In this document: positions 19,914 to 38,274 of the stretch, piece after piece
Layout of the letters: every line of letters starts with the position of its first letter
Numbering within the stretch: the stretch's first letter is position 1
Source: Bacteroidales bacterium
Lineage (GTDB): Bacteria > Bacteroidota > Bacteroidia > Bacteroidales > PUMT01
Assembly (NCBI GenBank): GCA_007134675.1
Contig: SLKJ01000160.1
Span: 1-53,596, forward strand
Reading direction: 5' to 3'
DNA: 53,596 nucleotides
Position numbers and translations under genes: made by a program
The notes under the pieces: model-generated
Database searches by the model: none
Told to the model about the DNA's origin: nothing
What the model saw: the letters and a program-made list of their open reading frames with translations, nothing else

Positions 19914-19987
19914 GGTTCCGTAGCTCAGCTGGATAGAGCAACAGCCTTCTAAGCTGTGGGTCCCAGGTTCGAATCCTGGCGGAATCA
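19914..19987 (+). tRNA. tRNA-Arg, anticodon TCT
   Basis: Cloverleaf by eye: acceptor GGTTCCG/CGGAATC, anticodon stem ACAGC/GCTGT with loop CTTCTAA, T-arm CCAGGTTCGAATCCTGG; CCA not encoded. Confidence 0.95.
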
Positions 19988-20657: not shown

Positions 20658-21527
20658 ATGACAGAAGAGAAGAAATTAAATGACAGATTGCGTGTGGCTA
20701 TTCAGGGAGGGTATGGGGCTTTCCACGAAATTGCTGCAAGAAAGTATTACAAGGAGACAAATATTGAAATTATTCCATGTGATACTTTTATTGACCTTTT
20801 TGAATCTGTGCCCCTTGGTAAAGCAGACTCTGCAGTCGTGGCAATAGAAAACTCTGTTGCCGGCTCACTGATACCCAATTATGCCTTGCTGAGCAGATCT
20901 GAATTCAAAGTTACCGGCGAGGTGTATCTGAGAATTGTTCAGAATCTTATCGGTCTGCCGGGTCAGAAGGTAAAAGACATCAAAGAGATCCATTCACATC
21001 CAATGGCTATTCTTCAGTGCCAGGAATTTCTGGAGCCGCTCAGGCATCGGGGAGTCAAAATGGTGGAATCAATAGATACTGCTCTTAGTGCTAAATGGAT
21101 AAGGGATAATGACCTTAAAGGAGTTGCAGCACTTGCCAGTGATCTTGCAGCCGATATGTACGGACTTGAGCTAATTGCTTCCAGTGTTGAAAGCAACAAA
21201 CGTAATTTTACCAGATTTCTGGTTGTTGAGCCTGTCAAAACCCCTGAAGAACCTGATACAAATAAATCCGGGAATAAGGCATCAATCTGTTTTACACTTC
21301 CTCACCATGTCGGAAGCCTCTCCCAGGTTCTTTCAGTGCTCGCATATTATAAAATCAACCTTTCCAAGATCCAGTCCCTGCCAATAGTCGGAAGGGAGTG
21401 GGAATATTTTTTCTATCTTGATGTCCTTTATGATGACTATTCAATGTATAAAAAGGCTCTGTCGGCAATACAGCCATTGATTGATCAATTGGAGATTCTG
21501 GGAGAGTATCAGAGCGGAGAAAGGTAG
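20658..21527 (+). CDS. pheA: Prephenate dehydratase with ACT domain; likely start MTEEKKLNDRL (track ORF start at 20592 overlaps the attenuator)
   Basis: VAIQGGYGAFHEIAARKYY, VVAIENSVAGSLIPNYALL, IHSHPMAILQCQEFL, NFTRFLVVE, ACT region VGSLSQVLSVLAYYKINLSKIQSLPIVGREWEYFFYLDV. Confidence 0.93.
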   Translation: MTEEKKLNDRLRVAIQGGYGAFHEIAARKYYKETNIEIIPCDTFIDLFESVPLGKADSAVVAIENSVAGSLIPNYALLSRSEFKVTGEVYLRIVQNLIGLPGQKVKDIKEIHSHPMAILQCQEFLEPLRHRGVKMVESIDTALSAKWIRDNDLKGVAALASDLAADMYGLELIASSVESNKRNFTRFLVVEPVKTPEEPDTNKSGNKASICFTLPHHVGSLSQVLSVLAYYKINLSKIQSLPIVGREWEYFFYLDVLYDDYSMYKKALSAIQPLIDQLEILGEYQSGER

Positions 21528-21563
21528 AAATATGAAAAAAATCATATTTTTTTTTATATTCTC

Positions 21564-21593
21564 TTTGTTCTTAATTATAATTTTATACTTTTG
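21564..21593 (+). promoter_or_regulatory. Bacteroidota-type promoter for the ilv-leu-thr leader
   Basis: TTTG (21564-21567), 18-nt spacer, TACTTTTG (21586-21593, matches TAnnTTTG), 23 nt before the leader ATG. Confidence 0.65.
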
Positions 21594-21616
21594 TGCCTGA
21601 ATTAAGTTATAAAAAT

Positions 21617-21694
21617 ATGAGTCGTATCCTAACAACTATTCTTTTTATTATTCTCCTGGATAGACGGGAAGAAGTGAGAAAGTTGTTTAAATAA
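21617..21694 (+). CDS. Ile/Leu/Thr-rich attenuator leader peptide MSRILTTILFIILLDRREEVRKLFK
   Basis: ATG AGT CGT ATC CTA ACA ACT ATT CTT TTT ATT ATT CTC CTG ... AAA TAA, between a TAnnTTTG promoter and a strong hairpin directly upstream of ilvD. Confidence 0.82.
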   Translation: MSRILTTILFIILLDRREEVRKLFK

Positions 21695-21716
21695 TAAAAG
21701 ATGATTTAAAAACTAA

Positions 21717-21748
21717 AAAGCCCTCTCACTTCGAAGTGAGAGGGCTTT
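21717..21748 (+). terminator. Attenuator hairpin upstream of ilvD
   Basis: Perfect palindrome AAAGCCCTCTCACTTC|GAAGTGAGAGGGCTTT; only a short T run follows, 17 nt before the ilvD ATG. Confidence 0.75.
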
Positions 21749-21765
21749 CACATTAAAATGAGAAA

Positions 21766-23622
21766 ATGAAACGAGTTCTTAGAAGCAACACTACAACCAT
21801 GGGAAGGCTGAATGCAGGCGCAAGAAGCCTTTGGCGGGCCAACGGAATGAATAAGGAGCAGATGGGGAAGCCACTTATTGCTATTGCAAATTCATTTACA
21901 CAGTTTGTCCCGGGTCATGCCCACCTGCATCCTATTGGCCAGAAAATGAAAAAGTGGATTGAAAAACAGGGTTGTTTTGCGGCTGAATTCAATACAATTG
22001 CTGTTGATGACGGTATTGCAATGGGTCATGACGGTATGCTTTACTCGCTGCCCTCACGCGAACTTATAGCCGACAGTATTGAGTACATGATAAATGCTCA
22101 TTGTGTCGATGCAATGGTATGCATAAGTAACTGCGATAAAATAACCCCCGGGATGCTTATGGCTGCTATGAGGCTCAATATACCGACCGTATTTGTTTCC
22201 GGCGGCCCCATGGAAGCCGGCAAGGTAGGTGGGAGTGCTGTAGATCTGGTCGATGCAATGGTTATCTCTGCTGATCCTTCTGCTTCTGATGAGGATATCT
22301 ACAATGTCGAAAAGAATGCATGTCCAACCTGCGGGTCATGTTCAGGAATGTTTACAGCAAATTCAATGAATTGTCTCAATGAAGCGCTTGGCCTTGCTCT
22401 TCCCGGTAACGGGACGGTAGTGGCAACCCATGTGAACCGTACAGGACTGTTTGAAGATGCTGCTTCTCTTATTGTGAAGCTGGCCAACAGATATTACATG
22501 GATGGTGATGATAAGGTTTTACCCAGGTCTATTGCAAAAAAGAATGCATTCATGAATGCGATGAGACTGGACATTGCAATGGGTGGATCAACGAATACTG
22601 TTTTACATCTGCTGGCTATTGCACATGAAGCAGGAGTGGATTTTACAATGAATGATATTGACATGCTTTCCCGCAATACTCCTGTACTATGTAAAGTAGC
22701 TCCCAGTAGCAGCTATCATGTTGAGGATGTGAACCGTGCAGGTGGAGTTCTGGGTATTATGGCCGTCTTAAATGATGCCGGATTGATTGACGGGGATGCT
22801 TTGAGGGTTGATTATCCCAGCCTCAGGGAGGCAATTGCCGATTACGATATAAGGCATTCATCTGCTTTGGATAAGGCATGGGATATTTATGGCAGCGCAC
22901 CGGGTGGCTTTCGCAATCTTACCATGGGTTCCCAAAGGGTCATGTATGAAAACCTTGACCTGGACAGGGAAAAGGGTTGTATAAGGTCAGCCGGTAACGC
23001 CTATTCTGATGACGGGGGACTTGCTGTTCTGTATGGCAATATTGCGCAGAAAGGCAGCATAGTTAAAACAGCAGGTGTGGATCCTTCTGTACATCAATTC
23101 GAAGGATATGCCAGGGTTTTTGAATCACAGGATTATGCATGTAAAGCGATCCTGGACGGCCGGATCCGTGAGGGTGATGTAGTGGTTATCCGATATGAAG
23201 GTCCGCAAGGAGGACCTGGTATGCAGGAAATGCTATACCCGACATCCTATCTGAAGTCCGCCGGTCTGGGTGTTAAATGTGCCCTGATAACTGACGGACG
23301 CTTTTCCGGTGGCACCTCCGGGCTTTCGATAGGACATATTTCGCCTGAGGCTGCTGCCGAAGGTGAAATAGCACTTATAAGGGAAGGTGACAGGATACTG
23401 ATTGATATCCCCGCCAGAACCATTAATGTAGACTTATCTGCTGAAGAGCTGGAAAACCGCCGGGAGGAGGAATCTCTTCGTGGAGAAGATGCCTGGTCTC
23501 CCGGTGAGCGTAAAAGACAGGTTTCAAATGCACTGAAATATTATGCTTCGATAGTAACCTCTGCTGATACGGGTGCTGTACGAGTTTTACCCGAAAACCT
23601 GGTTAAGGCTGCAAAGTCATAG
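21766..23622 (+). CDS. ilvD: Dihydroxy-acid dehydratase
   Basis: 618 aa; [78 protein letters not shown]. Confidence 0.98.
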
Positions 23623-23644: not shown

Positions 23645-25402
23645 ATGAATCGCAATAAATCGAATAACATGGACAAACAAACAGATACATTAATGAAAGA
23701 TTCTCAAAAAAAAGCGGTAACCATGACAGGGGCACAGGCCGTTATGGAATCTCTTGTAAACGAGGGTGTGGAAATTCTCTTTGGATACCCGGGGGGGGCT
23801 ATCATGCCTGTATATGATGCCCTCTACTCTTATAGTGAAAAGTTGAACCATATCCTTGTAAGGCATGAACAGGGGGCAGTACACGCCGCTCAAGGATATG
23901 CAAGGGCGACCGGAAAGGTGGGGATATGCCTTGTAACATCAGGACCCGCAGCCACCAATGCAGTTACCGGCATTGCTGATGCAATGATTGACTCCACTCC
24001 GGTTGTTGTTATTTCCGGACAGGTCGGGTCAGCACTCCTTGGGACAGATGCGTTTCAGGAAACTGATGTTGTCGGTATCACTCAGCCTGTTACTAAATGG
24101 AACTATCAGATTACGCGTGCTGATGAGATACCATGGGCAATGGCCAGGGCCTTTTACATTGCCAGAAGTGGCCGTCCCGGTCCTGTGTTGCTTGATATAA
24201 CTAAAGACGCCCAGTTTGGTTCACTGGAATATATCTATAAACCGGCAATTTCGGTAAGAAGTTATACACCGTATCCCATTATTGATCCCGGACAGGTTGA
24301 GGAGGCTGCCAGGCTGATAAATTTTGCCAAAAAACCCCTTGCCCTGATTGGACAAGGTGTGGTAATTGCTGGTGCTGAAGCCGAACTTAAGAAGTTTCTT
24401 GAAAAGACCGGAATTCCTGCTGCTCAAACACTTCTGGGACTTTCGGCACTGCCGTCTGACCATAAACTGAATGTCGGGGGACTGGGTATGCATGGTAATT
24501 ACGGACCCAACCTTAAAACCAATGAGTGTGATCTGATAATTGGTATAGGAATGAGGTTTGACGACAGGGTTACAGCGGATACCCGCCGTTATGCCACCAA
24601 TGCAAAGATAATTCATATGGACATTGATCCTGCTGAAATTAATAAAATAATTCATGCTGACGCACCAATACTCGGTAATGTAAAGGAAAGTCTCCCGATG
24701 CTGACATCAAGGGTAAGTAAGAATGATCACAAGAAATGGGTTGAAGAGTTCCACGCATGTTACAGGATAGAGTACGAAAGACTTATTGAGCGTGAATTGT
24801 ATCCCGATAAACCCGTGATTACAATGGCGGAGGTAGTGCGAAGGGTGTCAGATGCCTTCAATGATGATGCCATCATGGTAACCGATGTTGGTCAGCACCA
24901 GATGGTCGCGTGGCGCTACTTTAAATTCAGACAGTCCCGATCGGTAATTACCAGCGGCGGACTGGGTACTATGGGTTTCGGATTGCCTGCTGCCATAGGA
25001 GCTAAACTTGGCAGGCCCGACCGTCCGGTCTGTCTTTTTGTTGGTGATGGCGGATTACAAATGACTATCCAGGAACTTGGAACCATATACCAGTCCAAGG
25101 TACCCGTTAAAATCGTCCTGCTCAATAACAATTTCCTCGGTATGGTAAGGCAGTGGCAGGAACTTTTCTTTGATTTAAGGTATGCCTCAACTGAGCTTGT
25201 AAATCCTGATTTCCAAACCATATCGAAAGGGTATTTCATTCCTTCAGCTAAAGTTACGAAACGGGAAGAACTGGATAAGGCGATTAAAAAAATGGTAAGT
25301 ACTGATGGTCCGTTTTTACTTGAGGTGGTAGTTGAAAAGGAAGGAAATGTTTTTCCTATGGTGCCTGCCGGAGCATCTGTTGAAGATATATTACTGGAAT
25401 AG
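23645..25402 (+). CDS. ilvB: Acetolactate synthase large subunit (start 23645 or 23669)
   Basis: GVEILFGYPGGAIMPVYDAL, HEQGAVHAAQGYARATGKVG, TPVVVISGQVG, GDGGLQMTIQELGT, NNNFLGMVRQWQELFF. Confidence 0.97.
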   Translation: MNRNKSNNMDKQTDTLMKDSQKKAVTMTGAQAVMESLVNEGVEILFGYPGGAIMPVYDALYSYSEKLNHILVRHEQGAVHAAQGYARATGKVGICLVTSGPAATNAVTGIADAMIDSTPVVVISGQVGSALLGTDAFQETDVVGITQPVTKWNYQITRADEIPWAMARAFYIARSGRPGPVLLDITKDAQFGSLEYIYKPAISVRSYTPYPIIDPGQVEEAARLINFAKKPLALIGQGVVIAGAEAELKKFLEKTGIPAAQTLLGLSALPSDHKLNVGGLGMHGNYGPNLKTNECDLIIGIGMRFDDRVTADTRRYATNAKIIHMDIDPAEINKIIHADAPILGNVKESLPMLTSRVSKNDHKKWVEEFHACYRIEYERLIERELYPDKPVITMAEVVRRVSDAFNDDAIMVTDVGQHQMVAWRYFKFRQSRSVITSGGLGTMGFGLPAAIGAKLGRPDRPVCLFVGDGGLQMTIQELGTIYQSKVPVKIVLLNNNFLGMVRQWQELFFDLRYASTELVNPDFQTISKGYFIPSAKVTKREELDKAIKKMVSTDGPFLLEVVVEKEGNVFPMVPAGASVEDILLE

Positions 25403-25464
25403 AATTAAAGTCAGTTTGGGAAGATGAATCTATTTTTAATCAGAAACATTAATATTATACTAAT

Positions 25465-26028
25465 ATGCGACAGGAATTTACCCTGACAATTTTTTCAGAA
25501 AATCGTGTTGGAATACTGAATCAGATAACCACAGTATTTACAAGAAGGCATATTAATATTGAAAGCCTGACAACATCAGAATCAGCCATTGAGGGAATAC
25601 ACAAGTTCACTATAGTTATATATTCAACCAGGGAAGAGGTTGATCTTCTGGTGAAACAGGTTGAAAAGCGCATTGATGTGCTGAAGGCTTATTCTTTTTC
25701 ACAGGATGAGATCATCTACCAGGAGATTGCACTGTACAAGGTTCCTACCGCCGCCCTGTTTGAGGGTAATGAGATTGAAAAACTTGTTCGCCAGTATGGT
25801 GCAAGAATACTCGAAATGACAGCTGAATACGCAGTAATTGAAAAGACCGGCCACAAACATGAGACTCAGGAATTGTTTGAGAAGCTTGATCCTTACGGGG
25901 TGACCCAGTTTACTAGGTCCGGAAGGGTTGCTATCAACAGGCTTAAAAAGGAACCGCTTAACAGTTACCTCAGGAAACTGGATAAAAACGATGTAAAACC
26001 TGATGTTGAAATTGACACTCAATTATAA
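25465..26028 (+). CDS. ilvN: Acetolactate synthase small regulatory subunit
   Basis: ACT-domain start FTLTIFSENRVGILNQITTVFTRRHINIESLT; adjacent to ilvB. Confidence 0.93.
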   Translation: MRQEFTLTIFSENRVGILNQITTVFTRRHINIESLTTSESAIEGIHKFTIVIYSTREEVDLLVKQVEKRIDVLKAYSFSQDEIIYQEIALYKVPTAALFEGNEIEKLVRQYGARILEMTAEYAVIEKTGHKHETQELFEKLDPYGVTQFTRSGRVAINRLKKEPLNSYLRKLDKNDVKPDVEIDTQL

Positions 26029-26045
26029 AAACAAAATAGATAATT

Positions 26046-27092
26046 ATGGCAAAAATTAATTTTGGCGGTGTAGAAGAAACCGTTGTGACCCGTGATGAGT
26101 TTACAATAGAAAAGGCACGGGAAGTTCTTAAAGATGAGCTGGTAACAGTAATCGGATATGGTGTTCAGGGTCCCGCCCAGGCACTTAACATGAAGGACAA
26201 TGGCATCAATGTTATTGTGGGACAGGCTCCGGATTTTAAGGCGGACTGGGACAAGGCTGTAAGTGATGGCTGGGTTCCGGGTAAAACACTTTTCCCGATT
26301 GAGGAAGCTGCAAGTAAAGGAACCATAATTCAGTACCTGGTTTCCGATGCCGCACAACGTTCAATATGGCCCCTGCTTAAGTCCTGCCTTAACGAGGGTG
26401 ATGCGCTATATTTTTCTCACGGATTTTCAATAACCTACAAGGACCAGACAGGTGTGATACCACCTCCTGATGTGGATGTCATATTATGTGCTCCAAAAGG
26501 TTCAGGAACCAGTGTCCGCCGAAATTTTCTGGCCGGTGCAGGAATTAATTCAAGTTATGCTGTTTTTCAGGACTACACAGGCAGGGCGGAAGAACGCACC
26601 AAAGCCCTCGGTATTGCTATTGGCTCAGGTTATCTTTTTCCAACCACTTTTGAGTCAGAAGTTTACAGTGATCTTACAGGGGAGCGTGGTGTATTAATGG
26701 GTGCCCTGGCCGGAATAATGGATGCCCAGTACCAGGTACTCCGACAGAATGGCCATTCTCCGAGTGAGGCATTTAATGAGACAGTGGAAGAGCTCACCCA
26801 GAGCCTTATCCGGCTTGTTGATGAGAAAGGCATGGACTGGATGTATGCAAACTGCAGTGCAACAGCTCAGCGTGGTGCTCTTGACTGGCGACCAAAATTC
26901 AGGGATGCGACACTACCGGTATTTGTTGATCTTTATAATAAGGTAAAATCCGGCGAAGAATGCAAAAGGGTCCTGGAATCAACAGGTGCGGACAATTACA
27001 AGGATATGCTTGAAGAAGAACTTAAAGAGCTTCGTGAATCGGAGATGTGGCTTACAGGTTCGGAGGTCAGAAAATTACGTCCTGATAATTAG
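26046..27092 (+). CDS. ilvC: Ketol-acid reductoisomerase
   Basis: VIGYGVQGPAQALNMKDNGINVIVGQ, LYFSHGFSI, VDVILCAPKGSGTSVRRNF, SEVYSDLTGERGVLMGA. Confidence 0.96.
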   Translation: MAKINFGGVEETVVTRDEFTIEKAREVLKDELVTVIGYGVQGPAQALNMKDNGINVIVGQAPDFKADWDKAVSDGWVPGKTLFPIEEAASKGTIIQYLVSDAAQRSIWPLLKSCLNEGDALYFSHGFSITYKDQTGVIPPPDVDVILCAPKGSGTSVRRNFLAGAGINSSYAVFQDYTGRAEERTKALGIAIGSGYLFPTTFESEVYSDLTGERGVLMGALAGIMDAQYQVLRQNGHSPSEAFNETVEELTQSLIRLVDEKGMDWMYANCSATAQRGALDWRPKFRDATLPVFVDLYNKVKSGEECKRVLESTGADNYKDMLEEELKELRESEMWLTGSEVRKLRPDN

Positions 27093-27156
27093 AAACCAGA
27101 AAGAATATAAATTATTAGTCTGAATATTAACTTAAAACTAAATAAAAACAATTGAT

Positions 27157-28653
27157 ATGACCAGCAAGATTCAGATTTTTGACACTACACTCAGAGATGG
27201 TGAACAGGTACCCGGATGCCAGCTCAATACAATTGAAAAAATTGAAATTGCGCGACAGCTCGAAAAACTGGGCGTGGATATTATTGAAGCAGGTTTCCCC
27301 GTTTCCAGTCCCGGTGATTTCAACTCGGTTATTGAAATATCTAAGATGGTGGAAGCTCCTGTAATATGTGCTCTGACTCGAGCTGTAAACAAAGATATTG
27401 AGGTGGCTGCTGATTCTTTAAAATTTGCGAAAAGAAAAAGAATCCATACGGGCATAGGTACTTCCGAATTCCATATAAAACACAAGCTTAATTCAAACCC
27501 CGAGGATATCCTCAAGCGTGCCGCCGAGGCAGTTAAGTTCGCAAGAAAATTTGTTGACGATGTAGAATTTTATGCCGAAGATGCAGGAAGGACAGAAAAT
27601 GAGTACCTTGCAAGGGTGATAGAATCAGTTATAAAGGCAGGCGCTACGGTAGTCAACATTCCTGATACAACCGGTTATTGCCTTCCGGCTGAATATGGTG
27701 AGAAAATAGCTTTCCTGGTTAACAACGTTCCCAACATCGATAAAGCAGTAATATCAACCCACTGCCATAATGATCTTGGTATGGCTACTGCAAACACTCT
27801 GTCCGGAATAATGAACGGAGCGCGCCAGGTGGAGGTTACTGTAAACGGAATAGGTGAACGTGCAGGCAACACCTCCCTTGAAGAGGTTGTGATGGCAATT
27901 AAAAGCCATCATGCACTTGATTTTGAAACAGGTATTGATTCCAGGGAGATAATGAAGTCAAGCAAACTGGTTTCCACTCTTATGCACATGCCTGTTCAGC
28001 CCAACAAGGCAATCGTTGGCCGGAACGCGTTCGCTCATTCCTCAGGTATTCATCAGGACGGTGTTCTTAAGCACAGGCAGAACTACGAAATAATAGACCC
28101 CCTGGAAGTAGGAGTTAAAGAGTCGGCAATTGTCCTCACGGCCAGGAGTGGAAGAGCAGCTCTCAAGCACAGGTTGCAGTTGCTTGGTTATGAATTTGAA
28201 ACTGCAGAGCTTGATGAAATTTACAACCGTTTTCTTGATCTGGCCGACAAGAAAAAAGACATAAGCGATGAGGACCTGGAGGTACTGGCCGGCAGGGAGA
28301 AACAAAAAGGTAAGCGCCCCATTGAACTTGTATCCCTGCAGGTAATGTGCGGCAAATCAACAATTCCCACAGCAACTGTACAGGTCAGTTTTAAAGGAGA
28401 TATTTTTACTGAAACTGCATCAGGGAACGGACCTATAGATGCATCATTTTCTGCCGTCAAGAATCTTCTGAAACGGCGGGTCAGACTGGAAGAATTCCTG
28501 ATACAGGCCATTACCAGGGGTAGTGATGACCTTGGAAAAGTCCATGTCCAGGTTGAGCACAAGGGTGATATATATTATGGCTTCTCTGCCCATACTGATA
28601 TTGTTACTGCCTCTGTAGAAGCCTTCCTTGATGCACTTGGTAAAATTTCATAA
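27157..28653 (+). CDS. leuA: 2-isopropylmalate synthase
   Basis: [74 protein letters not shown]-terminal regulatory domain. Confidence 0.95.
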
Positions 28654-28688
28654 GAATAAGATTATTTACTGAAACAAAAACTTTAGAA

Positions 28689-30089
28689 TTGAGCAAACAG
28701 ACAATTTTTGACAAGATATGGGCCAGGCATGTTGTTCATGATGTGCCTGAAGGACCCTCCGTGCTTTATATTGACCGTCATTTCATTCATGAAGTTACCA
28801 GTCCGCAGGCTTTTGGCGGACTAAAAAAGAGGGGGGCTTTTGTTTTTCGGCCCGAAAAAACTATCGCCACAGCCGATCATAATGTTCCTACTGTAGATCA
28901 GCATCTTACAATACAGGAGGAGTTGAGCAGGGTTCAGGTTGAAAAGCTTAAACAGAACTGCCATGAGAACAATATTACCCTTTACGGGCTCAATCATCCC
29001 TTTAATGGCATAGTTCACGTTATAGGACCTGAACTGGGAATTACCCAGCCTGGAATGACCATTGTTTGCGGTGACAGCCATACTTCAACTCACGGAGCAT
29101 TTGGCAGTATAGCTTTCGGCATTGGGACAAGTGAAGTAGAGATGGTGCTTTCAAGTCAGTGCCTGATGCAAACCAAACCCAAAAGAATGCGCATTAACAT
29201 TGATGGCCGGTTGGGTAAGGGAGTCCTCTCTAAAGATATTATCCTTTATATTATCTCAAAAATATCAACCGGAGGCGCAACCGGCTATTTTGTTGAGTAT
29301 GCTGGTTCGGCAATCCGCAATCTGTCAATGGAGGCAAGGATGACTATCTGTAACATGAGTATTGAAATGGGTGCCAGGGGGGGACTGATCGCACCCGATG
29401 ATGTAACCTTTGATTATATGCGGGGACGGGAATTTTCTCCCAGAGATGATCAGTGGGAAAGGATGCTTGAGTATTGGAAAACCCTTCCTTCTGATCCGGA
29501 TGCCGAATTTGACAAGGAGTTGTTTTTCAAAGCCGAAGAGATTGAGCCGATGATCACCTATGGTACCAACCCTGGTATGGGAACCGGCATTACCGGCAGA
29601 ATACCCCTTATTGAAGAGGTAGATCCTTCTTCAAGGGCCTCTTATAAAAAATCAATGGATTATATGGATTTTTCACCTGGTGATCCTTTGACAGGGAAAA
29701 AAGTGGACTATGTTTTCGTAGGAAGCTGCACAAATGGAAGGATTGAGGATCTTCGCGATTTTGCAGACTTTGTAAAGGGCAGAAAGAAGTCCGCCGACGT
29801 CGAGGTATGGATAGTTCCAGGCAGCAGGCAGGTTGAAAAGCAGGCTGATGAAGAGGGAATCAAGCAGGTACTTGAAGATGCAGGATTTGAAATCCGTCAG
29901 CCCGGTTGTTCAGCATGCCTTGCAATGAATGAAGATAAGATACCGGAAGGAAAATATGCTGTGTCTACTTCAAACCGGAATTTTGAGGGAAGGCAGGGCC
30001 CCGGGGCCCGTACCATGCTTGCCAGTCCCCTGACCGCTGCAGCTGCAGCAATTACAGGAAAAGTAACAGATCCAAGAACATTATTATAA
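28689..30089 (+). CDS. leuC: 3-isopropylmalate dehydratase large subunit; apparent TTG start
   Basis: [64 protein letters not shown]. Confidence 0.96.
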
Positions 30090-30100
30090 TAGATATCTGT

Positions 30101-30697
30101 ATGCCAATAGAAAAATTTTCAACTCTTGTATCCAAATGTGTGCCTTTGCCAATTGAAAATGTTGATACTGATCAGATTATACCGGCAAGGTTTCTTAAAG
30201 CCACTACCCGTGAAGGCTTTGGTGCAAATCTTTTCAGGGACTGGCGATATGACAAAACCGGAAAACCTAAAGAAGATTTTGTACTGAACAGTAAACGTTA
30301 TTCAGGTCATATCCTGGTAGCCGGCAAGAATTTTGGCAGTGGAAGCAGCAGAGAGCATGCTGCCTGGGCAATCAAGGATTACGGTTTCAAAGTTGTAGTT
30401 TCAAGTTTTTTTGCAGACATCTTCAAAAACAATGCTCTAAATAACGGCCTCCTTACCGTGCAGGTCTCTGACCTATTTCTGGAAAAGATGTTTGTGCGGA
30501 CTGAATCTGATCCTTCAACTGAGGTTAAGGTTGATCTTGAAAATCAGAAAATATCCCTGTTGCCTGGCGGACCTGAGGATATTTTTGAGATCAGTCAATA
30601 CAAAAAAAAGTGCCTGATAAACGGATATGACGATATAGATTATCTTCTGAGTTTAAAGAATAAAATAATTGAGTGGGAAAAAAACACTTTATCATGA
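30101..30697 (+). CDS. leuD: 3-isopropylmalate dehydratase small subunit
   Basis: [61 protein letters not shown]. Confidence 0.96.
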
Positions 30698-32253
30698 GAA
30701 GAATTGAAGTTATGGATACCACCCTGAGGGATGGAGAGCAGACCACAGGCGTTTCATTTAATGATTCAGAGAAACTTGCCATGGCCCAGATGCTCATTGA
30801 GGAGATCAGGGTTAACCGGATTGAGGTGGCCTCTGCACGTGTATCTGAGGGGGAGTTCAGGGCAGTGAAAAGAATAACGGAATGGGCCCGGAATATGAAT
30901 TATCTTGAAAAGGTGGAAATACTCAGTTTCGTTGACGGAACATTGTCGCTGGACTGGGTTGTTGAGGCCGGAGCAAAGGTTATCAACCTTTTGACAAAGG
31001 GATCACTTAAACATCTGACAGGCCAGTTAAGAAAAACACCTGCTGAACATTTCAGGGATATCGACAATGTAATTGAAGAAGCCCGAAAAAGAGAGATAAT
31101 TGTAAATGTTTATCTGGAGGACTGGTCGAATGGCATGATCCATTCCCCTGAGTATGTTTTCCAGATAATCGAGCACCTGACAAAAAGAGATGTGAAGAGG
31201 ATCATGCTTCCCGATACCCTCGGCATTCTGAACCCTGAACAGACGCTTGAGTTCTGCAGCACCATCACCGGTCGGCATCCGGATGTGCATTTTGATTTTC
31301 ATGCTCATAATGATTATGACCTGGCAACCGCCAATGTCATGGCTTCAATCAGGGCAGGTATCAGCGGAGTCCATACCACTGTCAACGGGCTGGGTGAGCG
31401 GACAGGTAATGTCCCTCTTTCCAGTGTAATCGGAATACTTAACGATCATCTCAAAGTTGAGAATGACCTTGTGGAGTCTAAGCTTTTCAAAGTTTCAAAA
31501 ATGGTCGAGCTGTTCAGTGGTCTTAGAATTCCTGCCAACAAGCCCCTTACAGGTGAATATGTGTTCACTCAGTGTTGCGGGGTCCACGCAGATGGTGACG
31601 ACAAAGGCGATCTCTATTTTAATGAGCTGCTGCCGGAACGTTTTGGCCGGCTGAGGCGTTATGCTCTTGGTAAAACATCAGGCAAGGCAAGTATAAAAAA
31701 GAATCTTGATGAGCTAGGCATTACCCTGTCAAAAGAGGATCTGGATAAGGTAACCAGGAGAGTGATAGAGCTGGGTGACCTGAAGGAGACGGTTACAACT
31801 GAAGATCTTCCCTATATAATTTCCGATGTTCTTAAGAATGGGTCACAAGAACAGAGTATCAGGCTGATAAACTATTATCTTGCAGTTTCCAAAGGTCTGA
31901 GACCTGTTGCTTCAATAAGTGTCTGCATAGACGGAGAGGCACATACTGAAACTTCAGTTGGTGACGGACAGTATGATGCTTTCATGAAAGCAATGTGGAA
32001 GATCTACGATAAGCTTAAAAAACCAAGGCCGGCACTGACCGATTACCTGGTTACGATACCGCCCGGAGGAAAAACCGATGCGCTGGTTGAGACAACTATA
32101 AGCTGGGAGTACAAAGGCGTGGAGTACAAGACACGTGGTCTGGATGCTGATCAGACTGGAGCTGCTATTAAATCAACCATGAAGATGCTTAATATAATTG
32201 CAAATAATGAGCTGAAAACTTTGTCGGTTCCCACAGAAAAATTAAATAATTAA
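30694..32253 (+). CDS. Second alpha-isopropylmalate synthase-family enzyme, candidate citramalate synthase (start [16 protein letters not shown])
   Basis: HMGL-like [61 protein letters not shown] overlap with leuD; C-terminal LeuA-dimer-like domain. Confidence 0.85.
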
Positions 32254-32274
32254 CGTTATCATCCAAAATAATAT

Positions 32275-33348
32275 ATGGAGTTAAAGATTGCAGTACTTGC
32301 CGGAGACGGCATAGGTCCGGAAATCACTGCCCAGGCCATCAAGGTGATTAATGCCGTTTGCAGGAGGATGGGCCATGATCCCTATTACAGAGAAGCACTT
32401 GTGGGAGCGGTTGCCATAGATAAAACTGGCGATCCCTACCCCGAGGAAACACACAAAATATGCATGGAATCTGATGCAGTCCTATTCGGTGCCATTGGTG
32501 ATCCTCGTTTTGACAATGATCCAAATGCCACCGTAAGGCCGGAGAAAGGACTTCTTTCGATGAGGAGGAAGCTGGGACTGTATGCCAATATAAGACCTGT
32601 AATGACTTTTCCGTCGTTGCTTCACAAATCTCCTCTGCGAAAGGATATTGTCGAAGGAGCTGAATTTGTTGCCATCCGTGAACTTACCGGGGGAATATAT
32701 TTCGGAAGGCCCCAGGGTCGCTCTGAAGATGGTAACACTGCCTATGATACATGTGTATATCATCGTTATGAAATAGAGCGAATCTGCCGTCTGGCCTTTG
32801 ATTTTGCTATGAAAAGGCGTAAAAAACTGACCATGGTTGATAAGGCCAATGTACTGGCTACCTCAAGACTGTGGAGAGAGACAATGCAGAGCCTTGCTCC
32901 CTCATTTCCCGAGGTTGAAGTTGAATATATGTTCGTAGATAATGCCGCAATGCAGATAATCCAGTGGCCCGGGCGTTTCGATGTGCTGGTAACAGAAAAT
33001 ATGTTTGGCGATATATTAACTGATGAGGCAAGTGTGATTACCGGTTCTCTCGGATTGCTTCCCTCCGCATCCATAGGTATGCATACTTCTGTTTTTGAAC
33101 CGATTCACGGTTCATATCCCCAGGCTGCCGGACGCAACATCGCCAATCCGCTTGCAACAGTTTTATCAGCTGCACTTATGTTTGAATATGCATTCAACCT
33201 GGGGGCTGAAGCAGATCTCATAAGGCAGGTTGTTGACAGATCTCTGGCTGAAGGGGTGGTGACTGAAGATATTGACCCTGTTAAGCCTGAGAGCACTTCG
33301 GAGGTCGGTGACTGGCTTGCAGCCAGAATTGAAGATGTTACGACATAA
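32275..33348 (+). CDS. leuB: 3-isopropylmalate dehydrogenase
   Basis: [77 protein letters not shown]. Confidence 0.96.
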
Positions 33349-33385
33349 AAAGGTTTTAACTGACGGTTTCCGGAGGCTAAAAAGG

Positions 33386-33417
33386 TAGAGCCTCTCCCGT
33401 CAGGGTGAGGCTTTTTT
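33386..33417 (+). terminator. Intrinsic terminator between leuB and thrA (possible attenuator)
   Basis: AGAGCCTC-T-CCC-GTCA-GGG-T-GAGGCTTT followed by Ts. Confidence 0.82.
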
Positions 33418-33460
33418 GTATCTTGCATCAGAATTATTAATAACAAATCAGTAAACAATC

Positions 33461-35914
33461 ATGAAGAAGGTTCTGAAATTTGGCGGTAGTTCCCTGAGTA
33501 ACCCACCTGCAATGTCCACATTATTGAAAACAGTTTCTGAAAATTTGGAGAATCAGAACCAGGTGATAATAGTCTGTTCTGCTCTTGACGGAGTTACCAA
33601 TCTTATTAATGACCTGATTGAGGATGCTATCGGCGGAAAGGATATTTCTCAGGGAATAAGGAACCTTGAAGAAAAACATTATGAGCTTGTCAGGTCTAAT
33701 CTGGAGGTGCGCAGACAGAACCATGTCCTGCTCGGACTGAAGCTGTATTTTAATCAACTGGAGGAGATGCTTTCTGGTATAATGGCTCTCGGTGAGGTAT
33801 CTCTTCGCACCATTGACCGCGCCCTGTCATTTGGGGAGCTTTGTTCGGCGTTCATGTTTACCTCTTTTATCGATCAGTTTTGCGGCAATGCCGTATTTGC
33901 CGATACACGTCAGCTTATCAAGACTGACAGCAATTTTGGCCAGGCAAATATAAATGAGGATTTCAGTAACTCTCTTATCAGAACCTTTGTTAAGGAAAAT
34001 GATGGATTAATACCTGTCTTTACAGGTTTTATAGCCTCCAATGAGGCAGGTATAACTACTACAATGGGCCGTGGAGGATCTGATTACACTGCTGCAATCG
34101 TTGCTGCTGCTCTGGATGCTGATGAAATTCAGATATGGACCAATGTTGATGGCATCATGACGGCCGATCCGAAAATGGTGAGCAAGGCCTTTTCCATACC
34201 CCGGCTTACATACAGCGAAGCTGTTGAGTTAAGTTATTTCGGCGCCAGGGTAATACATCCTCCAACGATGTTTCCTGCAAGATCGAAGAATATTCCGATT
34301 ATTATCAAAAACAGCTTTAACCCCTCTTTTGAGGGGACAGTTATTTCCGGCTCCACTACCGGAAACGGTTCCCTCATAAAAGGCATATCCTGTATTTCTG
34401 AAATATGTCTGGTCACAATACAGGGTGGGGCAATGGTTGGTGAGAAGGGTTTTGGAGGCAGACTATTCAGCAAGCTTGCAGCAGAAGGGATAAATGTATT
34501 TCTTATTACCCAGGCCAGCTCACAGCACAGTATCAGCCTCGCAATCAGTCCCCGGGACATCACCATTACCCGAAAGGTCATCAACAGGGAGTTTGAACAG
34601 GATTTTGATACGGGCAGGCTTGATAAACCCGATTTTGATGATACACTAAGTATTATTGCGATGGTCGGGGAGAATATGAGGCAGAAAAGAGGTCTTTCAG
34701 GTAAGGTTTTCAGCTCACTTGGCAGAAGTGGTGTCAATGTTATTGCTATAGCTCAGGGCTCATCAGAGTTGAATATTTCGGTGGTAATTGCCAGGAGGGA
34801 TGTTTCAAAAGCAATGAACTCTGTTCATGATGATATGTTCCTTTCACCTGTCAAGACGCTTAATGTTTTTTTCTGCGGGGTAGGCAATATAGGAAGCACC
34901 CTGCTGCGTCAGATAGACAGCCATCTCTCTTTCCTTGAGGAGAAGCGTCATATAAGACTCAGCCTGATTGGCGTATGCAATAGTAAATCCATTCTTTTCA
35001 ACCAGGAAGGTGTCAGCGCCCGAACATGGAAACAGGATCTGCAGAATAAAGGTGAACCCGGAAATGTGAACAATTTCATTGAGCGTGCCTTTGAATTAAA
35101 CCTGCCCAATTCTGTCTTTGTAGACAATACCGGCAGTAAAGAGGTTCCGGAGCTTTATACACGGCTTTTTGAAAAAAGCTTTTCAGTGGTTACCTGCAAC
35201 AAGATAGGAAATACAGGCAGTTACGGCAGCTATTCAAAATACAGGGAAGTGTCAGGGAAATTCGGGGTTGATTACCTGTATGAAACAACTGTGGGTGCCG
35301 GGCTTCCTATAATAAAAACCTTGCAGGAGCTTCTGGTTTGCGGCGATGAAATATTGAAGGTGGAAGCAATATTATCCGGCACCATTTCATTTGTATTCAA
35401 TGAATACAAGGGGGACAGGACTTTTGCCGAGGTTGTCAGAATGGCACAGGATAAAGGGTTTACTGAACCTGATCCGCGCGATGATCTGAGCGGGCTTGAT
35501 TTTGCAAGAAAGATGCTGATCCTGGCCCGGGAGACGGGACTTGGAACAGAGTTTGAAGATCTTGATCTTGCACCGATTTTACCTGATAACTGTCTTAATG
35601 CCAGAACGGTGGAGGATTTCTACAAAGAGCTTGAAGCCTCTGAGGAGTATTTCAGCTCACTGAAAAACAAAGCTGCTGCTGAAAATAAGGTGATGCATTA
35701 TGTTGGGATATTATCCGATGGCAAAGTAAAAACAGAACTATTGATGCTGGATTCTAAACATCCTTTTTATAATCTCTCAGGCAGTGATAATATTATATCT
35801 TTTACCACTAACCGTTATCTCAATAATCCCATGGTAATAAAGGGACCCGGGGCCGGAGCAGAGGTGACTGCTGCAGGGGTGCTGGCCGACCTGGTAAGGG
35901 TTGGGGCAGATTGA
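33461..35914 (+). CDS. thrA: Bifunctional aspartokinase / homoserine dehydrogenase
   Basis: VLKFGGSSLSNP, FTGFIASNEAGITTTMGRGGSDYTAAIVAAAL, ACT repeats, FFCGVGNIGSTLLRQI, TTVGAGLPIIKTLQELL, LSGTISFVFNEY. Confidence 0.96.
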   Translation: MKKVLKFGGSSLSNPPAMSTLLKTVSENLENQNQVIIVCSALDGVTNLINDLIEDAIGGKDISQGIRNLEEKHYELVRSNLEVRRQNHVLLGLKLYFNQLEEMLSGIMALGEVSLRTIDRALSFGELCSAFMFTSFIDQFCGNAVFADTRQLIKTDSNFGQANINEDFSNSLIRTFVKENDGLIPVFTGFIASNEAGITTTMGRGGSDYTAAIVAAALDADEIQIWTNVDGIMTADPKMVSKAFSIPRLTYSEAVELSYFGARVIHPPTMFPARSKNIPIIIKNSFNPSFEGTVISGSTTGNGSLIKGISCISEICLVTIQGGAMVGEKGFGGRLFSKLAAEGINVFLITQASSQHSISLAISPRDITITRKVINREFEQDFDTGRLDKPDFDDTLSIIAMVGENMRQKRGLSGKVFSSLGRSGVNVIAIAQGSSELNISVVIARRDVSKAMNSVHDDMFLSPVKTLNVFFCGVGNIGSTLLRQIDSHLSFLEEKRHIRLSLIGVCNSKSILFNQEGVSARTWKQDLQNKGEPGNVNNFIERAFELNLPNSVFVDNTGSKEVPELYTRLFEKSFSVVTCNKIGNTGSYGSYSKYREVSGKFGVDYLYETTVGAGLPIIKTLQELLVCGDEILKVEAILSGTISFVFNEYKGDRTFAEVVRMAQDKGFTEPDPRDDLSGLDFARKMLILARETGLGTEFEDLDLAPILPDNCLNARTVEDFYKELEASEEYFSSLKNKAAAENKVMHYVGILSDGKVKTELLMLDSKHPFYNLSGSDNIISFTTNRYLNNPMVIKGPGAGAEVTAAGVLADLVRVGAD

Positions 35915-35953
35915 TCCTTTAAGGGTTAGCTGAAATAGTAATAATTTAAAATT

Positions 35954-36880
35954 ATGGATTCAGTAAGAGTTTTCGCTCCCGCTTCGGTTGCCAATGTCAG
36001 TTGCGGTTACGATGTTCTCGGATTTGCTGTACACCGTCCCGGTGATGAGGTCTTTATGAGCCTGAACTCCTCAGGTAGAGTAAGTCTTGATATGATTGAG
36101 GGAGATGATGGAAGGCTTCCCCGTGAACCGGAAAAAAATACAGTAAGTGCGGTAGTAATCAATTACCTCAAGCATATAGGGGTAAAGCAGGGAATAGGCA
36201 TAAAGCTTTATAAGAAAATGCCTTTCGGCAGCGGGCTTGGATCAAGTGCTGCCAGTGCTGTCGGGGGACTTGTGGGTGTGAATGAACTTATGGGCAGTCC
36301 TCTTTCACGGATGCAGCTTTTGCCGTTTGCAATGGAGGGAGAGAATCTTGCATGCGGAAATGCACACGCTGATAATGTTGCCCCTTCACTTCTTGGAGGT
36401 ATGGTGCTCATTCGCTCCTATAGCCCTTTGGATGTAATCACTCTTCCTGTGCCCGGATCGCTTTGCTGTGGCCTGGTCTATCCTCATGTTGAGGTACCTA
36501 CCATGGCTGCCCGTCAGATCATAAGGACAAATGTTCCGATGGCTGCCGCCATCAGGCAGTGGGGTAATGTCGGGGGAATTGTTGCTGGCCTGTTTATGAA
36601 TGACACCGGCCTGATAGGAAGGAGTATGGAAGATTTCGTTGTAGAGCCCGTCAGGAAAATGCTGATACCCCATTTTGACGAAATGCGCAGTCTTGCCCTG
36701 AAAAATGGAGCACTTGGTTTTGGAATTTCAGGGTCCGGGCCCACAGTATTTGCTCTCTGCACTGATAAGGAAATTGCAGTTAAAGTGACAGTAATCCTGG
36801 AAAACAGACTAAAGGATCATGGGTTGGAGTCAACATGTTTTGTATCAGACATAAACACTGAAGGAGCTACTTTTATTTGA
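35954..36880 (+). CDS. thrB: Homoserine kinase
   Basis: VFAPASVANVSCGYDVLGFAV, MPFGSGLGSSAASAVGGLVGVN, GFGISGSGPTVFAL. Confidence 0.95.
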   Translation: MDSVRVFAPASVANVSCGYDVLGFAVHRPGDEVFMSLNSSGRVSLDMIEGDDGRLPREPEKNTVSAVVINYLKHIGVKQGIGIKLYKKMPFGSGLGSSAASAVGGLVGVNELMGSPLSRMQLLPFAMEGENLACGNAHADNVAPSLLGGMVLIRSYSPLDVITLPVPGSLCCGLVYPHVEVPTMAARQIIRTNVPMAAAIRQWGNVGGIVAGLFMNDTGLIGRSMEDFVVEPVRKMLIPHFDEMRSLALKNGALGFGISGSGPTVFALCTDKEIAVKVTVILENRLKDHGLESTCFVSDINTEGATFI

Positions 36881-36951
36881 AACCTTACAATTTAATACTC
36901 CGGTTACCATAAGAGGGTATCTGATTCTTTTTAATTATCTTTAAATAAAAA

Positions 36952-38274
36952 ATGTTATACTACAGTACAAATCTCAAATCTCCTGCTGTTTCCCTCAGAG
37001 AAGCTGTGATGAGAGGACTCGCAGAGGATGGCGGGCTCTATCTTCCTGAATTGATTCCTGTATTGCCACCTTCATTTTTTAAATCAATTGGAGACATGAC
37101 TCACAATGAAGTGGCACTTAAAGTTGCCAGGGTTTTTATTGGAGATGATGTTCCTGAAGATGTTCTTGCAGGAATAATAAAGGAATCCCTTGATTTTATG
37201 ATACCCCTGAAGCGCTTTGGTGAAAATGTTTATTGCCTGGAGTTGTTTCATGGTCCTACAATGGCCTTTAAAGATGTAGGTGCCAGATTTATGTCGAGGC
37301 TTATGGCATATCTTTACAGAAATGAGGACAGGGCCCTTAACGTGCTGGTTGCAACTTCAGGCGATACAGGATCGGCAGTAGCAGCTGGTTTCCATGGAGT
37401 GGAAGGGATCAATGTTTTTGTGCTGTTTCCCGGAGGCAAGGTTAGTCCCCTTCAGCAGAAACAGATTACCACCTGGGGTCGAAATATCTATGCCCTGGAG
37501 GTGGATGGTACTTTTGACGACTGTCAGAAACTGACCAAACAGATGCTTGGTGACAGACAGCTGAGCGATTTGTTCAACCTTACATCGGCAAACAGCATCA
37601 ACATAGCACGACTGATTCCTCAGAGTTTTTACTATTTTTTCGCGTTTGCCAGGCTGGATACAGGACGTATTGATGAAGCACGCCTGCCTCTTGTATTCAG
37701 CGTGCCATGCGGTAACTTCGGTAACCTGACCGGTGGTCTGATGGCCAGGGCAGCAGGTTTGCCGGTACTCAGATTTGTTGCCTCTACAAATATCAATGAT
37801 GTTTTCTGCAGGTTCATGGAGACTGGTGAATATAAGCCGGCAGCTTCGATACCGACTATCAGCAATGCCATGGATGTTGGTGATCCGAGTAATTTTGTGC
37901 GCATAAAAGATCTTATGGGAAATAATATTGATAATTTCCGCGAAATCATAACCGCATATTCATACAGTGATGATGATACCTCTATGGCCATCGGAAAACT
38001 TCATGCTGCTACAGACTATATTATGGACCCGCACGGTGCTGTGGCTTACCTCGGATTGAGGCAATTTATGTCAGAATATCATGAGGCCGTAAATGGTATA
38101 TTTCTCGAGACAGCCCATCCGGCTAAATTTCCTGAGACTATGAAAAGGATCATTGATGATTTTGATTATTTACCACCTCAACTGCAGGAAGTTCTTAGCC
38201 GGGAAGAGAAATTTCATTCAATAGGGAATGACCCGGAAGAGCTTAAAGCCTTTATACAAGGTGTTAATCAATAG
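36952..38274 (+). CDS. thrC: Threonine synthase
   Basis: LFHGPTMAFKDVGARFMSRL, VATSGDTGSAVAAGFHGVEGINVFVLFPGGKVSPLQQKQ, TSANSINIARLIPQSFYYF. Confidence 0.96.
   Translation: MLYYSTNLKSPAVSLREAVMRGLAEDGGLYLPELIPVLPPSFFKSIGDMTHNEVALKVARVFIGDDVPEDVLAGIIKESLDFMIPLKRFGENVYCLELFHGPTMAFKDVGARFMSRLMAYLYRNEDRALNVLVATSGDTGSAVAAGFHGVEGINVFVLFPGGKVSPLQQKQITTWGRNIYALEVDGTFDDCQKLTKQMLGDRQLSDLFNLTSANSINIARLIPQSFYYFFAFARLDTGRIDEARLPLVFSVPCGNFGNLTGGLMARAAGLPVLRFVASTNINDVFCRFMETGEYKPAASIPTISNAMDVGDPSNFVRIKDLMGNNIDNFREIITAYSYSDDDTSMAIGKLHAATDYIMDPHGAVAYLGLRQFMSEYHEAVNGIFLETAHPAKFPETMKRIIDDFDYLPPQLQEVLSREEKFHSIGNDPEELKAFIQGVNQ

Follow-up and report, generated by a model that had tools for sequence, protein, structure and literature searches.

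Predicted leader-peptide attenuation by isoleucine and leucine ahead of the ilv-leu genes in a Bacteroidales bacterium

The window, which is the whole stretch of 53,596 nucleotides that was analyzed (contig SLKJ01000160.1, Bacteroidales bacterium), carries a large cluster of genes for amino acid biosynthesis. The gene order is pheA, then ilvD-ilvB-ilvN-ilvC-leuA-leuC-leuD, a cimA-like gene and leuB, and then thrA-thrB-thrC; the gene names were inferred from sequence resemblance, without a family scan. The first structural gene, ilvD, occupies positions 21766 to 23622 of the + strand, and its orthologues were collected by tblastn. Behind it, the open reading frames from ilvB to leuB (23669 to 33348) run in the same direction and are the presumed regulated genes, and the thrA, thrB, and thrC reading frames (33461 to 38274, + strand) belong to the same cluster. 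The order from ilvB to leuB is the same in the members of the genus whose contigs reach that far. In the relative SLOS01000348.1 (a MAG, Bacteroidales bacterium isolate CSSed165cm_468), IlvD is 96% identical over the first 299 residues.

Upstream of ilvD, on the + strand, a Bacteroidota-type promoter can be recognized by its sequence at 21564 to 21593, with TTTG at 21564-21567, an 18-nt spacer, and TACTTTTG at 21586-21593. It is followed by an Ile/Leu-rich leader open reading frame of 25 codons (21617 to 21694), which encodes MSRILTTILFIILLDRREEVRKLFK and then stops. Within this reading frame lies the control run ILTTILFIILL (21626-21658), which has four Ile and four Leu codons among its 11 codons and stands ahead of ilvDBNC-leuACDB. 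Between the leader and ilvD there is a perfect 16+16 palindrome at 21717-21748, a candidate terminator hairpin made up of region 3 (21717-21732) and region 4 (21733-21748), whose GC-rich 3:4 stem has 14 bp and a predicted energy of -23.4 kcal/mol. Region 2 (21671 to 21688) belongs to the late leader. It begins with GAAGTGAGA (21671-21679), which is complementary to TCTCACTTC (21724-21732) in region 3 and has a second copy in the 3' arm of the hairpin. The promoter, the leader, the palindrome, and this complementarity with its 3'-arm copy had all been pointed out in an earlier note, and they lie exactly, to the base, where that note placed them. The resulting 2:3 helix (9 bp, -12.0 kcal/mol) overlaps the end of the leader and excludes the 3:4 helix. 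Region 2 continues into AGAAAGTTGTT, and in the minimum-energy fold this segment pairs with AACAACTATTCT in the early leader (region 1, 21631 to 21642, which holds the Thr codons). This pairing supplies the first of three competing helices, the putative anti-antiterminator.

The leader region as a whole folds with a minimum energy of -46.9 kcal/mol, compared to a mean of -31.3 kcal/mol for shuffled sequences (z, -4.25), and it is more stable than 200/200 dinucleotide shuffles. Taken alone in the window species, the 2:3 complementarity has a p of about 0.015 against shuffles, and the 1:2 pairing is not significant by shuffling. On the + strand, the U-tract 3' of the hairpin consists of UUU only (a U run of 3), followed by CACAUU, and a pattern scan of the hairpin called a terminator on the - strand only and none on the + strand. 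The U-tract is also short (UUU) in the sister G004, and it reaches up to six U in relatives. Just 5' of the promoter, at 21530-21560, there is an A/T-rich inverted repeat, ATGAAAAAAATCATATTTTTTT, and similar repeats are present in several relatives of the genus. This repeat may be either an UP-like element or the end of the pheA transcript.

The elements of an attenuator and their geometry can be read directly from this DNA. They very probably represent a transcription attenuator of the classic, ribosome-mediated type that lies ahead of the ilv-leu genes and responds to charged tRNA-Ile and tRNA-Leu. For transcription start, stalling, induction, and termination at the ilvD leader, we infer the following course. 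RNA polymerase would initiate just past position 21593, and a ribosome would translate the 25-codon leader. When Ile- or Leu-tRNA is scarce, the ribosome would stall within ILTTILFIILL and mask region 1, leaving region 2 free. Region 2 would then pair with region 3 (GAAGUGAGA with UCUCACUUC), the 3:4 hairpin would come too late, and ilvD and the genes behind it would be transcribed. When Ile and Leu are ample, the ribosome would reach the stop codon and mask region 2, so that the 3:4 hairpin would form and transcription would stop at about position 21750.

This course was followed in an occlusion model, in which the RNA, extended to position 21733, was folded with the ribosome footprint kept unpaired. 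With the A site at codons 1 to 15, the 2:3 helix is predicted to form before region 4 exists, and with the A site at codons 18 to 26, stop codon included, 2:3 is blocked and 3:4 alone remains. At codon 14, the final Leu codon of the run falls inside the permissive range. Within the model, the folding in alternative states that the earlier note had proposed as a check thus comes out as expected, with 2:3 for a stalled ribosome and 3:4 for one that has moved on. When no ribosome is present, 2:3 is again the preferred helix of the RNA to 21733, with no clear advantage for 1:2, so the state without translation is ambiguous. A weak point is that the 3:4 helix is predicted to be much stronger than the 2:3 helix, so the arrangement could function only with a kinetic decision. 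The classic model of attenuation assumes a decision of this kind.

Ten complete leaders, including that of the window, could be aligned within the genus. The Ile/Leu-rich run, the hairpin, and GAAGTGAGA are kept in these leaders, with the variant AAAGTGAGA in L012. Indels of one and two bases between the run and GAAGTGAGA shift the frame in which GAAGTGAGA is read: it is read as E-V-R in L001 to L003, as R-S-E in L006 and L008, and as K-K-stop in L005, L007, and L010, and in L009 a stop codon precedes it. Because the segment is kept while its frame changes among three readings, its conservation indicates that it is selected as RNA and not as peptide. In the alignment, 97.8% of the cells are paired for the 2:3 helix and 97.1% for the 3:4 stem. 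For the 1:2 helix the value is 87%, with one compensatory pair (A-U to U-A, in the sisters L005 and L007). Changes on both sides of a stem are few, and the covariation score was matched by 15/500 shuffles. Covariation within the genus is thus modest when judged alone, as the stems hardly vary there.

The same arrangement was sought in the regions upstream of ilvD in genomes of the order Bacteroidales (125 non-identical regions). We counted as a leader any small open reading frame that starts with ATG, has 12 to 45 codons, and contains at least eight Ile, Leu, or Val in 11 residues. Such a leader is present in 85/125 regions, compared to 1.0% of dinucleotide shuffles, although this and the other order-wide counts are not independent, since the sampled genomes are related and share families; they span dozens of families. 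Pairing was tested in 90 leaders, namely, those that passed the criterion plus members of the genus that fell slightly short of it, as far as these leaders could be tested. A strong hairpin between the leader and ilvD scored above the cut in 89 of these 90 orthologues, compared to 3.6% of shuffles. A segment behind the run that is complementary to the 5' arm of the hairpin (p ≤ 0.05) was found in 73/90, where about 4.5 would be expected; some long-loop hairpins picked automatically (L026, L083, L089, and L106) are probably the 2:3 helix itself, and they weigh against the 2:3 result rather than in its favor. Pairing between the early and the late leader (1:2) reached p ≤ 0.05 in 27/90. In addition, TAnnTTTG occurs at most 75 nt upstream of the leader ATG in 76/91 orthologues, compared to 0.04 expected per region. 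The comparison of ilvD leaders that had been suggested as a check therefore shows both the leader reading frame and the 2:3 complementarity to be conserved in relatives, and with such conservation a chance origin of the arrangement is untenable. Of the earlier proposal of an Ile/Leu/Thr attenuator for the ilv-leu-thr cluster, the part concerning control of ilv-leu by Ile and Leu is strongly supported by these leaders, hairpins, and complementarities.

The proportions of Ile, Leu, and Val differ by family, and the layout is constant. Val in the leader is lower when leuC follows ilvD (p = 0.016 in a family-level Mann-Whitney test, uncorrected for phylogeny and multiple tests), and the same uncorrected test gave p = 0.10 for Ile and p = 0.08 for Leu. 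This is only a hint that leader composition may track the content of the operon. In other orders of the class, a run with at least eight Ile, Leu, or Val was present in just 4/20 regions upstream of ilvD, but there the IlvD proteins are weak matches to the query and their genes are perhaps not first in the operon.

Three other explanations of the locus were considered. As pheA runs in the same direction and ends at 21527, about 190 nt before the hairpin, the hairpin could be a mere terminator of pheA, and the leader reading frame and the complementarity would then be coincidental. However, the promoter and the leader sit between pheA and the hairpin, and the arrangement recurs in dozens of Bacteroidales families. 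Order-wide conservation contradicts this explanation, and we consider it extremely improbable. We give just as little weight to control that is mainly translational, in which the leader reading frame would feed ribosomes to ilvD by reinitiation. Leader genes near structural genes have been proposed to boost initiation (PMC4833913), but the peak for Bacteroidetes is at 11 to 14 nt (PMC4833913), and here the leader stop lies 71 nt from the ilvD ATG and the hairpin ends 5' of the ilvD start region.

An alternative terminator structure would also be present if the region were a metabolite- or protein-binding cis-regulatory RNA, such as a riboswitch or a T-box. This is very unlikely, because what is conserved is a leader with cognate codons and competing helices rather than an aptamer, and the Ile/Leu/Val mix varies between families under a constant layout. 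At the gathering score, the only Rfam match in the window is a tRNA (19914-19987), with no T-box, riboswitch, Bacteroid-trp, or Leu or Thr leader. At a relaxed threshold no relevant family appeared in the window either, the best by bits being PyrR, with 32 bits against 54. A match to the Bacteroides thetaiotaomicron sRNA BTnc231 was below threshold (19.7 against 80.4 bits) and was judged to be due to chance.

The role of threonine is a different matter. It can be proposed that the leader senses Thr too, so that the supply of Ile, Leu, and Thr would be integrated by a single attenuator acting on a joint ilv-leu-thr transcript; we see this as a tentative possibility. Of the 11 genus members, 10 have Thr in the ilv leader, mostly as LTT, LTA, or LTS, and a stall at codons 6 and 7 is permitted by the geometry of the occlusion model. 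The thr genes follow leuB in the genus and in G047, and among the matches listed for the sample of 295 genomes, the genus and G047 are alone in having ilvD and, downstream of it, thrB on one strand of a single contig. In G002, G005, G008, G010, G011, and G047, the gap between leuB and thrA is only about 15 to 24 nt and holds no Thr leader of its own. Conversely, the readable ilv leader of G009, LLNIILFIILL, lacks Thr, and this genome has a Thr-rich small reading frame (MNFTCTHNTMTTMCLAGDG) and a terminator before thrA instead. Thr-rich leaders are also common at stand-alone thrA genes of the order. Against this, the Thr codons are the region 1 strand itself, so that their conservation is confounded with that of the RNA strand. 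There is no order-wide enrichment of Thr, which makes up 3.4% of leader residues. In G013, which has LTT, the 11 kb of contig downstream of ilvD are free of thr genes, and there is no homoserine kinase match. In G009, thr genes do lie downstream, but the ilv leader, as far as it is readable, lacks Thr. The independent events are few, and in the window a terminator-like hairpin precedes thrA. The Thr part of the earlier proposal is not established, in view of the place of the codons inside region 1, the missing enrichment, and the mismatches in G009 and G013. The evolutionary version, in which the thr genes joined ilv-leu, lost their own Thr leader, and had its role taken over by the Thr codons of an ilv leader that now reads all three amino acids in this genus, would be rather unlikely.

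The hairpin ahead of thrA lies at 33387 to 33417 on the + strand; it has the form AGAGCCTCTCCC-gtca-GGGTGAGGCTTT, followed by more U, and is tailed by U6. In the window species, this hairpin is likely to restrict the influence of the attenuator on the thr genes. It makes doubtful the claim that the attenuator controls the whole ilv-leu-thr cluster, and a coupling of thrA-thrB-thrC to the ilv leader in the window species is doubtful. A terminator-like hairpin is also found in this gap in G004, and G002, G005, and G008, where the gap measures about 23 nt, are without it. In the window gap (33349-33460), the U6-tailed hairpin stands against an alternative fold of CTGACGG (33360-33366) with CCGTCAG (33397-33403), and a small peptide-coding stretch (33335-33388) extends across the end of leuB. 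For the gap of the sister G004, folding gives the terminator hairpin as the structure of minimum energy. The leuB-thrA gaps L211 (G009) and L208 (G001) carry Thr-containing small reading frames (MQGTTMNFTCTHNTMTTMCLAGDG; MTAISCKSCTVKQGAGIIYITATAFCSTG) followed by terminator hairpins, and these are probably separate thr attenuators inside the same genus. Upstream of the stand-alone thrA genes at L287, L286, and L294 (also L278, L283, and L295), there are Thr-rich leaders that end in TTTTTPWG(V). In L286, L287, and L294, this end is encoded by ACAACCCCUUGGGGGG or a near variant, with the self-complementary CCCCUUGGGG directly after the Thr codons. These leaders may represent a type of thrA leader element in Bacteroidales that is new to the literature.

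The mechanism proposed for the ilvD leader is already known, and the bacterial group is little documented for it. In Escherichia coli and Salmonella, the ilvGMEDA, ilvBN, leu, thr, trp, and his operons are attenuated (PMC1183508). The ilvD leader resembles these attenuators in its cognate-codon leader, its predicted competing 1:2, 2:3, and 3:4 helices, and its candidate terminator before the first structural gene. It differs from them in phylum and promoter type, in an operon that begins with ilvD, in an unrelated leader sequence, in a control run with Ile and Leu but no Val, and, in the window species, in the short U-tract. In Flavobacterium psychrophilum, which belongs to the same phylum (Bacteroidota) but to a different order, passages of one study give strong clues for leader-peptide attenuation before amino acid biosynthesis operons, and the anatomy of an ilvD leader is absent from those passages (PMC9723704). 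Small reading frames resembling attenuation leaders have been noted in B. thetaiotaomicron (PMC7366714). Papers on Corynebacterium ilvBNC (PMC11857589, PMC10272879) and Staphylococcus ilv-leu (PMC5794164) describe a leader peptide or upstream reading frame coding for branched-chain amino acids that regulates the genes for these amino acids; these are other phyla, their RNA is unrelated to the ilvD leader, and Staphylococcus adds CodY. The Rfam family Bacteroid-trp (RF01692) is likewise a candidate cis-regulatory RNA in Bacteroidetes (PMC2864571), but it has no match in the window at the gathering score. Our search, which left most subscription literature outside, found no specific paper on an ilv attenuator of Bacteroides or Bacteroidetes or on the ilvD leader. 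Classic leader-peptide attenuation would be the ordinary design before ilvD across Bacteroidales, a major group in gut and sediment. The ilvD leaders may offer a handle for studies of regulation in cultured Bacteroidales, as well as a clean comparative set for asking how leader codons track operon content.

The genome of the window organism contains two further leaders of this design. Upstream of trpE (L226, 1225-1302) there is a Trp leader, MQRIMKNNIWWWHSLSNSYVKHCIY, with WWW, followed by a U-tailed hairpin, AAGCCCGCTTAACACAGCGGGCTTTTTTT; this upstream region has no Rfam Bacteroid-trp match at the gathering score. Upstream of hisG (L225, reverse complement, 165-221) there is a His leader, MTGFSVNTYIYHHHFDAD, with HHH, and a hairpin with a long U-tract after it. 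Judging from these Trp and His leaders, this organism appears to use leader-peptide attenuation as a general habit.
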